A stretch of DNA of 64,000 nucleotides from Anderseniella sp. (GTDB lineage: Bacteria; Pseudomonadota; Alphaproteobacteria; Rhizobiales; Aestuariivirgaceae), in contig JANQOK010000023.1 in the NCBI GenBank assembly GCA_028289645.1, positions 310,001-374,000 on the forward strand, read 5' to 3'. The position numbers were made by a program, and so were the translations under genes. Of the stretch, positions 6,795-39,485 are shown in pieces. Within the stretch, counting starts at the first letter, position 1; each line of letters begins with the position of its first letter. The notes under the pieces are model-generated. The model was given only the letters and a program-made list of their open reading frames with translations. It made no database searches and was not told where the DNA came from.

Positions 6795-7850
6795 ATGACC
6801 AGTTTGTATATCCGCCCGTCAGGGTTGGTGTATGGCCCGGATGCGGCATTGGCGATTGAGGCAGGTGCGGGACTGCCGCTGGCCGGGGGCCGGGTTTGCT
6901 GGACCATGGCGATGGTCAGTGAAGATCGCGGTGCGAGCTGGACACCGCGCAAGACAGCGGCGCTTAAGGCGTCGCGCGACGCGGAAGTTGCAGACTGGGT
7001 CAGCCGGTTGAGCGCAGCCCGTGGTCCCGTTGCCGGGCTTGCGATGGATGCATGCCACATCATGGGCATAGTCAATACCACACCTGACAGTTTTTCCGAC
7101 GGAGGCGTCAATCAGGACGCCAATACCGCGATTGAGAATGCCAGGACCATGGCCAGGGACGGAGCGGCGCTGCTGGATGTCGGCGGCGAGTCCACCCGTC
7201 CAGGTTCAGACCCCGTCGATGAGACAGAGGAGTGGCGCCGCATTGAACCGGTCGTTACCGCGCTTGTCGGGGACGGGCTGAAAGTGTCCTGTGACACCCG
7301 CAAGGCGGCGATCATGCAGAAGGTGACGCAGGTTGGCGTTGCGATGATAAACGATGTCAGCGCGCTGACCTATGACAGCGATGCCGTGGAGGCCACCGTG
7401 GCCTCGGGCCTGCCGGTGTGCCTGATGCATGCGCAGGGTGACCCCAAGACCATGCAGCAGAACCCGGAGTACAACAATGTCGTGCTGGATGTTTATGACT
7501 GGCTGCGGCGGCGCATTGATGCGGTTGCCGGGGCGGGCATCCCACGTCATCTGATTGTTGCCGACCCGGGCATCGGGTTCGGCAAGACCTTCGACCATAA
7601 CCTTGAGCTTCTGGCCGGCCTGACGCTATTTCACGGTCTCGGCGTGCCGGTTATGCTGGGTGCATCCCGCAAGGGATTTATCGGATCGGTAACCGGTGAG
7701 AAAGTTGCTGCCAGGCGGCAGACAGGTTCTGCCGCTGCCGCCTTGCTCGGTGCCATGTCCGGTGTGCAGTTTGTGCGTGTGCACGATGTGCCGGCAACAC
7801 GACACGCCCTGAGCATGTGGCAGGCGACAACCGCCCAGCATCCAGATTGA
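6795..7850 (+). CDS. folP: Dihydropteroate synthase
   Basis: FolP condenses 6-hydroxymethyl-7,8-dihydropterin pyrophosphate with p-aminobenzoate in folate synthesis. Motifs of the TIM barrel are present: M-G-I-V-N-T-T-P-D-S-F-S-D-G-G (near residue 92), E-S-T-R-P-G-S, M-I-N-D-V-S-A, L-G-A-S-R-K-G-F-I-G and R-V-H-D-V. The protein is 351 residues, longer than the usual 270-290, because about 85 residues precede the first barrel motif. This extension is part of the same open frame, and no better internal start is visible. glmM follows within 82 bp, a conserved folP-glmM arrangement. Confidence 0.95.
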   Translation: MTSLYIRPSGLVYGPDAALAIEAGAGLPLAGGRVCWTMAMVSEDRGASWTPRKTAALKASRDAEVADWVSRLSAARGPVAGLAMDACHIMGIVNTTPDSFSDGGVNQDANTAIENARTMARDGAALLDVGGESTRPGSDPVDETEEWRRIEPVVTALVGDGLKVSCDTRKAAIMQKVTQVGVAMINDVSALTYDSDAVEATVASGLPVCLMHAQGDPKTMQQNPEYNNVVLDVYDWLRRRIDAVAGAGIPRHLIVADPGIGFGKTFDHNLELLAGLTLFHGLGVPVMLGASRKGFIGSVTGEKVAARRQTGSAAAALLGAMSGVQFVRVHDVPATRHALSMWQATTAQHPD

Positions 7851-34060: not shown

Positions 34061-34137
34061 GGCGGGGTAGCTCAGGTGGTTAGAGCAGCGGAATCATAAT
34101 CCGCGTGTCGGGGGTTCAAGTCCCTCTCCCGCTACCA
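34061..34137 (+). tRNA. tRNA-Met (CAT anticodon)
   Basis: The 77-nt gene folds as a complete cloverleaf with encoded CCA. The acceptor stem GGCGGGG pairs with TCCCGCT (G-U at both ends), the D-arm is GCTC/GAGC, the anticodon stem is GCGGA/TCCGC around loop ATCATAA, and the T-arm is GGGGG-TTCAAGT-CCCTC. The anticodon is CAT and the discriminator is A73. The sequence resembles elongator tRNA-Met. A TilS-modified tRNA-Ile with the same anticodon cannot be fully excluded by eye. It is not the initiator form, whose first base pair is normally mismatched. Confidence 0.9.
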
Positions 34138-34623
34138 CTCTATTTCTGCCGTTTTTTTTACACAAAGTGCCAAAAGTAATGGGTGGATAGTGGATGTGGC
34201 GGTCTCTCACTACCAAAATTTCCCGATTAGTTCCTGATCCTCGATGAGACTCTTGTGACCTGTTCTTCACTGAACTCAGATCGCTTCGTTGTGCATTTCG
34301 CTTTACCAAGCATCTGGCAGGGTTCAATACGCGGATTAATCAGGCAAGTCATATACCAGAATAATTATTGACCTGTACGTAAAGATGTTATCAAGTGAAG
34401 TCCTGTTCGCGAAGCAGTCGCGGGGCCATCGTGACGAGTAAAAACAGCGCGGTGTACCGCAGATGATAGTTAAGTGGTTGATTAAGGTATTTACGAACCC
34501 CTTAGGTGAATTGTTGCGTAAGCATGATCATACCGTGGTTTGCATGGAGAAACGTGTCGGTTCGTTCTACTGCGTAGATCAGGTTTTGTGGAATTGGGAG
34601 TAATCAAATTCTGAGTTGTCGAT
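34138..34623. other. AT-rich intergenic region after the tRNA
   Basis: This is 486 bp with no gene seen. A run of eight T at 34154-34161 shortly after the tRNA is the likely end of the tRNA transcript. Base composition shifts here to visibly lower GC, which continues to about 38.5 kb. The promoter of the kinase operon must lie in this stretch. No integrase or recombinase gene is present. Confidence 0.5.
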
Positions 34624-36753
34624 TTGACAGGACATGAAGAAAGCTACGCATGGGAAACCAGAGAGGCGGCAATCAAATTTGCCTTTGAGCTCGCCTCCAT
34701 TCGAACCCAAGCACATGGCGACCATGACTTGAGAGAAATGAATGAAGGCGTCGCGCGGCGTCTTGTACCTCTTCTGAACCTTCTCGAAGAGCAATCGCCA
34801 GTCCTGTTTGCTACTCTCTGGAAACACAAGCGGCGAGGTGGGGTAATTTCTGCCGTGGCAAGGAGTATGTCCTACACCCCTGATCCGACTCTGGATCCCA
34901 CAGAGTATGTTTGCCGCACAGATGGAACCCATGCGGGCCTTATAGTTAGCGATCACGAACCAATACCAAATTGCGAGCGATTGCTTTGGCTTCGAAAATG
35001 GGATTGCGATAATCTGAGTGCGCTGTTCGAGGATCCGCACTGGAACACGGCAGACCGAATTTCCAAAGGTTGCAACAAGAATGGTAGATGCAAACCACTG
35101 AAGCGACAAGTCGCTTTAACTCTTGGGGATTTCTGTAAAACCCGACCTTCTAACGATATCAAGTCGGGACCAGCACAAGCCCAGTTCGGCGTCGATTTCA
35201 TTCTCAATATCTACCTAGATGAAGATCGGGTCCAGGCATATGAGGCTCGTAACGGCCCTTTTCATTTCGATGATGGTGGGGCGAAGGATTTCATCAAAGC
35301 AATTGCGTCGAAAATGGCATCAGGAATCTGTGCGCTAATTGAAATCCGGCGCAACAGGATCACTGAGCAAATGACCGGGATTTCGTCGGAGCCCGAAACG
35401 CTGGCCACTGCTCTTACCAAGGCAGTCTCACGCGTCCTCCCAAATCAGATCCTGTGCAAAGACGTTTTTTTGTTTCTGGAGAATCCGGATGGCTCCCTGA
35501 AACAAGAAACACATATTCAAAGCGGTCCCAATCCACCAGTCAAATTGCCCGCAACTGATCGCAGTGATCTGCAAGCAATCATCGCAGCGGCATATTCAGA
35601 TCAATGCAAGGATCTTCGAACATCATACGATGACATTGCGCTGGTCGGTAGCGATTTGATTTCAAAGCACGTGTCGCACGGCAAGATCGTTGCCAACGCC
35701 AGGCAACTCCTAGTTGCTCAACTCCGAAATGAGGAAGATGAGAGCCCTCTCGGCTATTTGGTACTCGTCGATCGTATGAATGACTTGGCGCAATCTCAGG
35801 AAGAAAATCCCTCCAACATTAGCGATTTCTTCGATTGGGAGGACGAGCTTTATCTGAAGCATATTGCAGACATACTGGATTTCATTGCCGGTCTATATCG
35901 CTCTCGGGAACGCAGTATACAGCGTGCAATGGTATTGGGACATGAGATACTGGCTCCGACGAGGTTCATCTACGAATCTGCATTACGTCAACATGAAATC
36001 ACAGAGGGCCGACGCGACATGCCACAGCGTATGCGCGCAAAGGAGATCGAAGATATCATGGTGACATCAGAGTATGTTGAAACCTTGGTTGAATCTCTGA
36101 CGTTTCTGCAGCCTTCAGTTAACATACCTCCTGCTAACCGCTACTTCCCCGAGGACATTAACCTCTATCGCATTGCCAGCGATATGAGACGGATTTGCAT
36201 TCCGCTAGCGCGCAAGAACAATGTACGAAGCGAGCGCATCATGATCGGCTCATTCAACGTTGACCTCTACATGGATGAGCGCGCTATGAGTCAGGTCCTC
36301 CTCAATTTGTTCGTCAACGCGATAAAGTATCATCAGCCATTTAATACAGATGAATTTCGAGCAACGGTTGAGGTTGAGGAGCTCTCTGTGAAAGCGCTCG
36401 CCGCTACATCGGAGTTGTGTACGGCGTTGCCGGAGTTTCATGACAATCTATTGAGTTGGCAATCGGAGCGAGGAATATTGATCACTGTGTCCGATTATGG
36501 GATCGGTGTAGCTGGCTCCAGACCGCAGCGCATTTTCGAGCCGGGCTACCGCGAGACAGCCCACATTCGCGCTGGTGTATTTGGGGCAGGTATTGGACTG
36601 TCGGTCGTCCGAAACATACTACGAGATCATCGCGCGGATATTTGGCTGGAACACACAGACAATCCTACACAGTTTTGCATCTTCCTCCCGGAGCATCTGC
36701 GCCAAGAAGACTACACACTTGAACAATTCTGGCTGGGGAAGAGTCGAAAATGA
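34624..36753 (+). CDS. Cytosolic histidine kinase, first gene of a three-gene cassette
   Basis: This 709-residue protein has no membrane helix. A large unassigned N-terminal region (about 1-230) contains a Cys cluster near 150 (C-N-K-N-G-R-C). A GAF-like region (about 235-430) is followed by the phosphoacceptor helix with H440 in G-H-E-I-L-A-P and an ATPase domain (about 540-695: L-L-N-L-F-V-N-A-I-K-Y-H, D-Y-G-I-G-V, G-A-G-I-G-L-S-V-V). The start is uncertain: TTG at 34624 uses nearly the whole open frame, while ATG at 34738 has GAGAGA just before it. Its stop overlaps the receiver gene by 4 bp (ATGA). The signal and family are unknown. Confidence 0.8.
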   Translation: MTGHEESYAWETREAAIKFAFELASIRTQAHGDHDLREMNEGVARRLVPLLNLLEEQSPVLFATLWKHKRRGGVISAVARSMSYTPDPTLDPTEYVCRTDGTHAGLIVSDHEPIPNCERLLWLRKWDCDNLSALFEDPHWNTADRISKGCNKNGRCKPLKRQVALTLGDFCKTRPSNDIKSGPAQAQFGVDFILNIYLDEDRVQAYEARNGPFHFDDGGAKDFIKAIASKMASGICALIEIRRNRITEQMTGISSEPETLATALTKAVSRVLPNQILCKDVFLFLENPDGSLKQETHIQSGPNPPVKLPATDRSDLQAIIAAAYSDQCKDLRTSYDDIALVGSDLISKHVSHGKIVANARQLLVAQLRNEEDESPLGYLVLVDRMNDLAQSQEENPSNISDFFDWEDELYLKHIADILDFIAGLYRSRERSIQRAMVLGHEILAPTRFIYESALRQHEITEGRRDMPQRMRAKEIEDIMVTSEYVETLVESLTFLQPSVNIPPANRYFPEDINLYRIASDMRRICIPLARKNNVRSERIMIGSFNVDLYMDERAMSQVLLNLFVNAIKYHQPFNTDEFRATVEVEELSVKALAATSELCTALPEFHDNLLSWQSERGILITVSDYGIGVAGSRPQRIFEPGYRETAHIRAGVFGAGIGLSVVRNILRDHRADIWLEHTDNPTQFCIFLPEHLRQEDYTLEQFWLGKSRK

Positions 36754-37187
36754 TGACTGACGACCGGTTCCTACTATGGATCGATGATGACCAGCAGTTG
36801 CTGGATCATGCTGTTTCGCGCTTGCGAGAGAACGGGATTCGCGTGGTGGTTGAGCCAAGCATAGATAAGGCTGTTGAAACGATTAGGACGCGTCAATCTG
36901 AACTATTGGGTGTCCTAGTAGACCTTATGATGGATCCTGGCGAGCTATTGAGCGGTCTTGCAACCGAAGGTGGTTATGAAACCGGCTTTCGCTTGATCGA
37001 CTATCTGCAATCCGAAGGCCTTATGGCAGACCTCGTCTTCAAGATATTCACCAATGCTCAGACCGGATTTAGGCAATATCCGCCTGACGGTTCCAAGCAT
37101 GCCGTCAGGATCGTACAAAAATCCCGATACAAGGGTGTAAAATTTCTGAATTTCATTAAAAGCGAATTTGTTTTCGAGAATGTCTGA
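36750..37187 (+). CDS. Stand-alone receiver-domain protein
   Basis: This 145-residue response-regulator receiver has no output domain. The acid pocket is D12-D14 (W-I-D-D-D-Q-Q), the phosphoacceptor is D58 in V-L-V-D-L-M-M, the switch residue is T101 and the conserved Lys is K124, so phosphorylation should be possible. An insertion after D58 (M-D-P-G-E-L-L-S-G-L-A-T-E-G-G-Y) makes the loop longer than usual. It overlaps the kinase stop by 4 bp, and its own stop overlaps the next gene's start by 8 bp, so the three genes are translationally coupled. The kinase is the obvious phosphodonor. Confidence 0.82.
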   Translation: MMTDDRFLLWIDDDQQLLDHAVSRLRENGIRVVVEPSIDKAVETIRTRQSELLGVLVDLMMDPGELLSGLATEGGYETGFRLIDYLQSEGLMADLVFKIFTNAQTGFRQYPPDGSKHAVRIVQKSRYKGVKFLNFIKSEFVFENV

Positions 37188-38010
37188 TTCACCGAACAAA
37201 CAAGAAACTGGATGGCAGCTCCACCTATTGTGGGTCGTCGCTTGTGTTGCGCTCGCCGGGTGCGCTTTGGCCATCTATATGATTGTTAGCACAGGAAGTG
37301 CCGCACCCATACTACCCTCTCAGCTCCTCAATTTTTTAGGAATTGTTATTGGTGCAGTGGCGCTTGTAGCCACCGTTGGGTTTTTGGTTCTGGCGTTTCC
37401 TATTTGGAGCGAACTGGGGGCGATAGCTGAAGAACGAAAGGAAATTGCACAAGACCGCCGGGAAACACTAAAACTCCGGGATCGGGTGGAAGGCATGATG
37501 CGTGACCTCAACAGTGAAGCGGTAGTTCTTCGCGAGAAGGTGGACGATACAGTAGCGGTTCTCAGCGCCCCTTACAGTCGTTACACGGGAATCTATGATT
37601 CACTAAAACTGTTCAGCACTGTGATCCGGTATATAGGTACACCGCTTTGGGAAGAAGATGACGGAGGTAAGGGAGACAGCGCAGAGCCAGAAGCTGAACG
37701 AGTTGATCGACATGTCAGCTTGGTGCAACAACTAATGGCTGCGATGGCTGTGGAGCCCGATCACGATCTTGCGCTCTATCTTTCCTTCATGCGCGATGCA
37801 GTTGGCCATTTGCGGTCAACTGATGACAAGATTTTCTTCGAATTTGTAGATACTCGACTAAAGGCTGCTCGGCCAGTCGAGCCAAGCCACAAGGAAGTGC
37901 TACAGCAAATTTGGGACCGTTTCGAGATAGTGCGTGGACATGCTGCCCACTGGCGGCGCAGCCAGGACCCCCGGACTTTCGATCCGAATGCATCAACCAC
38001 CAATAGCTAG
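37180..38010 (+). CDS. Two-helix membrane coiled-coil protein, third gene of the cassette
   Basis: This 276-residue protein has two transmembrane helices (about 12-36 and 47-72), then a coiled coil (about 75-120: E-E-R-K-E-I-A-Q-D-R-R-E-T-L-K-L-R-D-R-V) and a C-terminal alpha-helical cytoplasmic part of about 150 residues with no motif I recognise. The ATG at 37180 overlaps the receiver gene's end; a TTG at 37168 would add four residues. Topology suggests an inner-membrane effector or sensor whose cytoplasmic part could contact the receiver. Function unknown. Confidence 0.75.
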   Translation: MSDSPNKQETGWQLHLLWVVACVALAGCALAIYMIVSTGSAAPILPSQLLNFLGIVIGAVALVATVGFLVLAFPIWSELGAIAEERKEIAQDRRETLKLRDRVEGMMRDLNSEAVVLREKVDDTVAVLSAPYSRYTGIYDSLKLFSTVIRYIGTPLWEEDDGGKGDSAEPEAERVDRHVSLVQQLMAAMAVEPDHDLALYLSFMRDAVGHLRSTDDKIFFEFVDTRLKAARPVEPSHKEVLQQIWDRFEIVRGHAAHWRRSQDPRTFDPNASTTNS

Positions 38011-38518
38011 ACTTGACTAATATCTGCGAGGTACTAGGCCAGTTGCCTCATTCAATCGACGATTGCTTCCTTGGTTGACGCAGCAACGAGCAAGAAGTCG
38101 ACGCCTGCGCCTCGAATGAAACAACATCCTGAACTTCCATTACACTAATGCGATGGGCGCCACGCGGTTGATTTGATTGGATTGGCGAAGTCGTCGTTTC
38201 GGCCGAGTTGCATGGTGTGATGTACCGTCCGAAGTGCAAGAGCTGTCATTGGCTACTCATCATCTTCATATTGCAAGTCATAATAGGGCTATCATGCTGA
38301 AAAGGCCTGTAATCGAGCAAGTCTTTAGCGGGCTGGCATGTAAAGCTGCTCCTGCTTCCAGGTTTCCCCAAAACCCAGGCATATCTTCTTGGTGGCCGCC
38401 GGCTCGGTAAACCCTGTGTCATGAGGCTCTGGATACCGGGTGCAGGCTAGTTTCCGGTCTGGCAGTGTCAGATTTTGCGAAATCGCCGCTAACGGAACGT
38501 CTTATTCAGTGCCAGCCC
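38011..38518. other. Intergenic region, no gene recognised
   Basis: This is 508 bp of lower-GC sequence after the cassette. Short open frames exist on both strands but none has a good ribosome-binding site together with coding-like composition. It may be remnant DNA of an insertion. Confidence 0.4.
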
Positions 38519-38773
38519 CTACAGCCGATGGTCAGGGATCACATCACCGAGATTACCGGCACTGATGTTTTCGAGATCTTCGGCTGTCAGCTCATCCGAT
38601 TTTTGCGATCGGTGGTGTTCCAGCTCAGCCAGTGTGAAGTCATATCCGCTGGCACTGGCCAGGTCCATGACTGCGGACGGATTCGATATGATCCCTGCCA
38701 CACGTGCCTGCAGTTCGTCATTGTCCGCCACGTCTTTGGCGAAACGCTCTATCTCTGAAATACTCATGAGCAT
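38519..38773 (-). CDS. Nif11-like leader-peptide family protein
   Basis: This small protein has 84 residues (or 82 from the second ATG at 38767). The N-terminal S-I-S-E-I-E-R-F-A-K-D-V-A-D-N-D-E-L-Q-A-R-V followed by a helix and the segment E-L-T-A-E-D-L-E-N-I-S-A-G is typical of Nif11-type leaders, which in many bacteria are precursors of ribosomal natural products cleaved after a Gly. Here the part after S-A-G is only N-L-G-D-V-I-P-D-H-R-L, with no Cys, Ser or Thr for ring formation, and no modification or export gene is nearby. It may be an orphan or decayed precursor, or a regulatory relative. Confidence 0.7.
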   Translation of the reverse strand: MLMSISEIERFAKDVADNDELQARVAGIISNPSAVMDLASASGYDFTLAELEHHRSQKSDELTAEDLENISAGNLGDVIPDHRL

Positions 38774-38812
38774 ATTCTTTGTCTGGCCCCTGAAGTAACT
38801 CGCCTGTCGTCC

Positions 38813-39195
38813 TCAATTCAGAAAGCCGTCAAAGTGATAGTTCGAACCGAGGCGCAGCAGGTGGGATTTGGAACTGAACTTGACCTCCTGGTTTTCAGCC
38901 GTGTCGCACAGAGTGGTCTCTTCGGCCATCTGGACGTAAAGATACTCATCCCTTACAGACCACTTGTCTCTAGATACCGGCGCCAGCCGCGCAGTGTTGC
39001 CGGCCAAACCATCTCAGCGGAGACGATTCTGCTGCGCTCGCCGCCACTCAAGTTGAATCCTCGTCCTTCGTCGAAACCGGTCCAGTTGAAGTCGGCTTCG
39101 ATGCCCCACGAGAAGTTGCCAAGCTGATGGTTATAGCCGGCCTAGACACCTCAAGTCCCTACGTAGGTATTCAGATCCGACCCGCACACACGTTG
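38813..39195 (-). pseudogene. Decayed Omp25-like outer-membrane protein gene
   Basis: On the minus strand one frame reads L-N-T-Y-V-G-T, a stop, G-V, a stop, A-G-Y-N-H-Q-L-G-N-F-S-W-G-I-E-A-D-F-N-W, the inner strands of an Omp25-type barrel. In another frame D-K-W-S-V-R-D-E-Y-L-Y-V-Q and, at the end, L-L-R-L-G-S-N-Y-H-F follow, which is the family's C-terminal strand. Between them the middle of the barrel is missing. Two internal stops, a frameshift and a deletion show that it no longer encodes the protein. It lies near intact homologue types at 9.5-11.3 kb. Confidence 0.7.
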
Positions 39196-39485
39196 CGCTA
39201 TCTGGTTTCGGCGCCGGTTCAGCGGGCCGGCACGGGTGGTTTCCTGCGGCGACTGCGGCTCATCAAACTGCACGCGAGACTTCCTGGTTGCTTCCTGCAT
39301 GGTTTTTGGGCGTGTCAACGTCCAGGCACAGTAATTCAGACAAATTCGCCGCCGGTGTGTGACAATTATCACTTCACGGACAGTCAGACTTCGATAGTCA
39401 TCCGGCCAAACAAGGCCCACCGGTTTCAGGACGCATGCCCTGGCGCGGGTCAGCCTGCAATAACTGAACATTCAGGATAAAAACA

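Follow-up and report, generated by a model that had tools for sequence, protein, structure and literature searches.

A rare kinase, receiver and membrane protein cassette beside a tRNA-Met gene in Anderseniella sp., possibly a phospho-signalling module for defence

We analyzed a stretch of 64,000 nucleotides from Anderseniella sp. (contig JANQOK010000023.1, positions 310,001 to 374,000; the whole stretch is referred to here as the window) and found in it three overlapping genes that encode a soluble histidine kinase, a lone receiver and a two-helix membrane protein. The same cassette occurs in one other, unrelated setting, where gene order and the active-site residues of kinase and receiver are conserved. 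We tentatively read it, at somewhat less than an even chance, as a horizontally moving phospho-signalling cassette in which the receiver switches the membrane protein, probably as a defence against mobile DNA, phages included, or in a conflict-type stress. Its genes, in window coordinates, are as follows.

34624-36753, + strand: soluble histidine kinase gene with a TTG start (709 aa); N-terminal part, about residues 1-430, unmatched; HisKA-like H box (H440); HATPase at 551-690
36750-37187, + strand: lone divergent receiver gene (145 aa); D58 is the predicted phospho-acceptor; no output domain
37180-38010, + strand: two-helix membrane protein gene, from ATG (276 aa); cytoplasmic coiled-coil-like stretch and helical C-terminal part

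The initial annotation, made from the sequence alone, had described three genes packed as one unit, and these coordinates were confirmed, with overlaps of 4 bp between the kinase and receiver genes and 8 bp between the receiver and membrane protein genes. Its view of the kinase as a soluble protein with an unassigned N-terminal half was also sustained. The 19-residue hydropathy mean of the kinase peaks at 1.44, so a membrane segment is not expected, and residues 1-430 gave no Pfam match, either within the whole protein or when searched as pieces. The ATPase domain matched HATPase_c (PF02518) above the curated threshold (E = 1.1e-13, 52 bits, cut-off 26.4), and the HisKA model of Pfam gave no match in the kinase. 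Residues H440, N561/N565, D624-G628 and G654-G658, which were placed by eye and which we take to be the H, N, G1 and G2 motifs, are identical in both copies. Searches of other collections converged on the ATPase region: the two weak PADLOC matches both lie at residues 616-683, every best stretch among the best 25 of 60 NCBIfam families starts at residue 511 or beyond, and the profile matches to solved structures (16 sequences) are confined to this region. Inspection by eye had raised the idea of a GAF domain in the N-terminal half, where Pfam found none; hhalign comparison with five GAF_2 stretches of the same genome gave probabilities below 1%, a weak test because the leave-one-out control recovered only 2 of the 5 true members. 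An AlphaFold model built from a two-row alignment had a predicted local distance difference test score (pLDDT) of 31, too poor for use.

In the receiver, D12, D13, D14, D58, T101 and K124 are identical in both copies. D12-D14 are read as the acidic pocket, and D58 aligns with an Asp of two ordinary receivers encoded in the window; T101 and K124 were assigned by eye because their region failed to align with those proteins. The best match of the receiver profile to solved structures had an E-value of 0.2.

Hydropathy places two hydrophobic segments in the membrane protein (residues ~11-45 and ~42-83), followed by a charged, heptad-like stretch, and the loop between the helices comprises about 10 residues according to hydropathy and a low-confidence model. 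This model, again from a two-row alignment, reached a pLDDT of 52 and was too poor for use. The protein had no family match in Pfam at E ≤ 0.001, in PADLOC or in NCBIfam, and its profile matched solved structures at E = 0.35 at best. The earlier statement that neither this protein nor the kinase N terminus resembles a known family thus stands. Membrane helices usually drift. In this protein, however, residues 47-86, from helix 2 into the beginning of the coil, form a 40-residue run that is identical in both copies; when the identity pattern was shuffled 20000 times, a run of this length never arose. The proportion of differing synonymous sites (pS) in this run is 0.995, so that synonymous sites are saturated, while helix 1 (residues 16-46) diverged freely, with a proportion of differing non-synonymous sites (pN) of 0.57. 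An invariant run at saturated synonymous sites next to a freely diverged helix suggests that helix 2 has a specific role, such as assembly, pore formation or docking.

When 84,980 species genomes were scanned by a method that detects close relatives only, a single real relative of the cassette emerged, on a contig from an uncultured Roseobacter (NZ_CANLYL010000026.1, hereafter L002). L002 carries all three genes, in unchanged order, with 63, 67 and 57% identity for the kinase, receiver and membrane protein, respectively. The 8-bp overlap between the receiver and membrane protein genes is kept, and a 3-bp gap takes the place of the overlap between the kinase and receiver genes. Between the two copies synonymous sites are saturated (pS 0.85-0.91) and pN is 0.245 for the kinase, 0.206 for the receiver and 0.288 for the membrane protein, and all three proteins are therefore under purifying selection. 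The recurrence of the genes in this order elsewhere, under such selection, places the cassette beyond a chance arrangement. The two contigs match only from 7996 to 11102 of L002 (34639-37757 of the window), with nothing else at E ≤ 1e-3, so the cassette forms a unit of its own in two unrelated settings. L002 appears plasmid-like, as it carries TraG/VirD4-like and ParA-like genes. A type II restriction-modification (R-M) operon encoding a Dcm methylase, Vsr and MvaI/BcnI endonucleases ends 151 bp upstream of its cassette on the same strand, and the GC content of the cassette there is 0.46, as compared with 0.516 in the surroundings.

Relatives of the MvaI/BcnI endonuclease were found on 17 plasmid records, and the four most similar (L055, L056, L057 and L058), all from Rhodobacterales, were examined. 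Their similarity to L002 comprises the R-M operon, stopping close to the operon's end (L002 positions 7768-7782) in all four, plus backbone stretches in some; the cassette was present in 0 of the 4. The operon is followed in one plasmid by an Abi_2-like gene (E = 0.00017, narrowly under the cut-off), with Cas9 after it, in another by an ImmA/IrrE gene, in another by an unassigned gene, a recombinase and, beyond these, another methylase accompanied by a GHKL ATPase, and in the remaining one by small regulators. L002 itself has an ImmA/IrrE-type gene farther along. These small Rhodobacterales plasmids share a Dcm-Vsr-MvaI/BcnI block followed by a slot with changing cargo.

Beyond these two copies the cassette is rare in every sample searched. 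The membrane protein was found in 1 of 60 relatives (its own genome), in 2 of 385 genomes of the class (its own and one spurious match) and in 1 of 369 genomes of the phylum (its own). The kinase N terminus was found in 1 of 394 genomes of the family of L002 (that of L002) and, at E ≤ 0.001, only in its own genome among 398 of the phylum, and for the receiver 357 class genomes gave its own plus three partial matches. These genome samples overlap, so the counts are not additive, and records very close to the genome of the window may be absent from several of the collections searched. None of the cassette proteins matched in 72,556 plasmid records, the kinase N terminus and membrane protein had no match in 50,697 phage records, and no match in viral contigs stood up. 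The initial annotation had suggested checking whether the three genes always occur together; they do so in both known copies, and no part of the cassette was found without the others (n = 2).

Several candidates were rejected along the way. A viral contig (L006) showed 31% identity over kinase residues 122-218; the match lies in an unrelated phage gene and was judged to be a local coincidence. That gene (L006:4770-5006) has nine residues, WLRKWDCDN, in common with the kinase N terminus, which were likewise taken as coincidence. The match of L003 was restricted to the common ATPase domain. A membrane protein match in G053 (L005; 27% identity, two stops, E = 8.1e-5) gave only E = 0.28 at best in a direct tblastn search. 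Matches in eight phylum genomes (E = 0.0026-0.094) were short pieces of 11-17 bits, and those in three class genomes (20-22 bits), located in frames of 227, 231 and 1920 aa, did not extend beyond the first half of the receiver.

The segment that holds the cassette lies directly after a tRNA gene, with the following features.

34061-34137, + strand: tRNA-Met (CAT), an integration hot spot; same-genus synteny stops at its last base
34138-34623, no strand: AT-rich leader of the variable segment (GC 0.44)
34138-39357, no strand: variable segment; about 24 kb instead in sibling genome G385; similarity to sibling G388 is back only at ~40327, past 11.3 kb

Acquisition of the cassette had been proposed from its base composition and its position 0.5 kb after a tRNA, and both observations proved correct. 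The cassette has a GC content of 0.50, as compared with 0.583 for the window, and GC at third codon positions is 0.49-0.51 in its genes versus 0.657-0.817 in all 28 other window genes compared, which were chosen by hand and do not include every gene. The end of the tRNA-Met gene (34137) and the kinase start are separated by 486 bp. The gene upstream of the tRNA is present in four of five same-genus genomes. In the three of these that could be traced, similarity ends at base 34137, the last of the tRNA; the contig of the fourth ended earlier. The membrane protein had no match in any of the five other same-genus genomes (78-99% complete). Horizontal acquisition of the cassette is thus supported by its composition, by the exact break at the 3′ end of the tRNA and by the lack of a match for the membrane protein within the genus.

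In sibling G385, similarity to the window returns at ~39358, after about 24 kb of intervening sequence. Following the tRNA-Met are a 612-aa integrase (PF00589), a resolvase, an ABC-3C set and a match to PD-Lambda-3_B (5.1e-74); the ABC-3C set consists of CTD9, MC5 and an ATPase that also matches LmuB (1.5e-39). The sequence across the tRNA end recurs as a 24-bp att repeat at L032:19054-19077, which delimits an element of about 18.8 kb (L032:228-19077) that includes a Hypoth_ymh/PD-Lambda-3_B-like gene. Since this integrase element sits at the tRNA-Met, we regard the latter as a hot spot for integration, and one that defence genes have occupied. In G388, similarity returns at ~40327, with 11.3 kb intervening. 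The PqqD and NTP_transf_5 nucleotidyltransferase genes of that segment (L034), together with genes that look glycosyltransferase-like by eye, resemble a peptide-modification set.

In the mechanism that we propose, the soluble kinase would sense a cytoplasmic cue via its unmatched N-terminal region, autophosphorylate on H440 and hand its phosphate on to the receiver at D58. As it is without an output domain, the receiver would act by protein binding, and its most plausible partner is the co-made membrane protein, which it may contact via the cytoplasmic coiled coil or the C-terminal helices. Binding might then alter the assembly of membrane helix 2 and thereby change the state of the membrane, resulting in a leak, arrest or an envelope response. 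A co-made membrane protein with a long cytoplasmic part would be the simplest partner for the receiver, and the fixed helix 2 would be the simplest effector element. The case for a defence role is circumstantial and comes from context, namely the R-M operon beside the L002 copy, the defence genes at the tRNA in G385, the Abi-like gene and Cas9 in one of the four plasmid slots, and rarity. A narrower version of this proposal, which we consider rather unlikely, is that the cassette is a mobile immune system of a new class in which the soluble kinase has a novel infection-sensing region and a two-helix membrane effector, acting as a pore or by causing death, is switched by phosphorylation of the lone receiver, with neither a transcription step nor a nucleotide signal. 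Two-component proteins have mainly been described as regulators of transcription. Should the cassette pass phosphate to a membrane effector, it would be a compact phospho-relay that triggers immunity or arrest, and neither its sensor region nor its membrane protein matches a catalogued family. A literature search aimed at kinase/receiver defence systems, of which the exact protein sequences were not part, returned no paper. The conserved helix 2, the single Asp and the single His make direct tests by point mutants possible.

A number of observations weigh against this interpretation. No protein of either copy matches PADLOC at E ≤ 0.001, the best E-values being 0.0065 (the ATPase part of the kinase) and, for the membrane protein, 0.011 (LeoBC). 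A PADLOC scan of 10 proteins neighbouring the window cassette gave no convincing defence match; two of the ten matched as ordinary regulators, via receiver or sigma-54-type ATPase domains only. The suggestion of a defence module made in the initial annotation finds circumstantial support in the R-M operon beside the L002 copy and in the G385 element, and none in the defence models or among the neighbours in the window. The receiver falls below the gathering score of Response_reg (E = 0.034, 14.7 bits, cut-off 30.2), as does that of L002 (13.2 bits). The neighbour statistics are weak because there are only two copies, and mobile cargo slots hold non-defence genes too. Indeed, the 11.3 kb segment after the same tRNA in G388 holds amidohydrolase, NTP_transf_5 and PqqD genes, with none defensive-looking among the four proteins scanned (Pfam only). 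A second att copy was not found in the window with up to 3 mismatches. In short BLAST searches of the 7.1 kb from 33901, the window's own tRNA end gave 10-11-mers only, and that of the sibling gave one 14-base partial match. Of the six PF00589 integrase matches in the genome, none is inside the window.

These same observations (the lack of a matching defence model, ten neighbours without a convincing defence gene, and the non-defence-looking genes at the tRNA in G388) would fit a mobile, non-defensive cassette for stress or envelope response, in which the membrane protein is an output that would stabilise or remodel the membrane in response to an abiotic cue. Envelope stress systems such as Lia/Psp likewise combine kinases and receivers with membrane or coiled-coil proteins (PMC11237479). 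We consider this explanation plausible yet doubtful, since rarity, location at a hot spot and an R-M neighbour are features more of conflict modules than of a host stress response, the receiver lacks a DNA-binding output, and at E ≤ 0.001 no Pfam family is related to the membrane protein. Alternatively, the membrane protein may be the input or anchor, sensing the membrane and recruiting the kinase and receiver, with a host protein as the target of the receiver. Receivers without an output domain often act on other proteins, and the conserved helix 2 with its adjoining segment could be a docking surface. However, an inter-helix loop of about 10 residues leaves little to sense outside, the kinase already has a large N-terminal region, and a mobile cassette that needed a host target would presumably be fragile; we therefore regard this arrangement as quite improbable. 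It is extremely improbable that an orphan two-component pair lies beside an unrelated membrane gene by chance or in a decaying locus, a reading to which the existence of only two copies and the local low GC might point, as the second locus keeps the order and an overlap, the frames are open, and saturated synonymous versus low non-synonymous change contradicts it.

Read as a phospho-signalling conflict cassette, the three genes can be compared with several known systems. Detocs systems comprise a kinase with a TPR sensor region, a stand-alone receiver and an effector that has its own receiver. Two-component control of a defence effector is described for Detocs (DtcABC, defensive two-component system; PMC11249213). 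The cassette resembles Detocs in having three genes that include a kinase and a lone receiver, the effector role of the third protein being predicted here. It differs in that the third protein has two membrane helices and no receiver match, and lacks in Pfam the PNP (ATP-cleaving) effector domain that is a feature of the best-described Detocs system, and in that kinase residues 1-430 gave no TPR match in Pfam. The two were compared by description only.

SLATT proteins, which are two-helix effectors of conflict systems, have a cytoplasmic helical part, and the membrane protein of the cassette is similarly laid out, with two membrane helices and a cytoplasmic helical part (hydropathy and a low-confidence model). 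In Pfam, which we take to contain SLATT models, no SLATT match was found up to E = 1 for the window protein or E = 10 for that of L002. A SLATT-type protein with two membrane helices has been predicted to be a pore-forming effector (PMC7159879). The controller of the cassette is a kinase/receiver pair, unlike the nucleotide signal of SLATT systems. The kinase motifs and the acidic residues of the receiver are as in an ordinary orphan two-component pair (a HisKA/HATPase kinase and a single-domain receiver), from which the cassette is set apart by its overlapping membrane gene, divergent receiver, unmatched kinase N terminus and mobile setting. HATPase and receiver, both present in the cassette, are among the abbreviations in the DefensePredictor figure of predicted, unvalidated defence systems (Fig. 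6F; PMC13092281), where they may belong to separate systems. In its proposed workings the cassette is most like Detocs and in layout it looks SLATT-like, and by sequence it belongs to neither family. We file it as a variant of two-component-controlled conflict modules.

The promoter of the cassette is presumably located in the leader (34138-34623), on the + strand of which a promoter scan found no promoter-like match. Scans of the region for promoters and terminators gave 3 and 6 sites, respectively, as compared with 4.6 and 3.8 in shuffled sequences, and were uninformative. In an RNA family scan the tRNA alone was detected. The surroundings had been called gene-poor, which is correct for 34138-34623 and 38011-38518, where no supported gene was seen, and incorrect farther on, where a Nif11-like gene lies at 38519-38773. 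This gene, on the - strand directly downstream of the cassette and inside the variable segment, encodes a Nif11-like leader peptide, a precursor of a ribosomally synthesized and post-translationally modified peptide (TIGR03798, E = 7.3e-12; PF07862, E = 2.7e-11). Elsewhere in the window, two similar lipoprotein-like genes lie in tandem at 659-1183 and 1269-1772, and the first 60 residues of their products are nearly identical.

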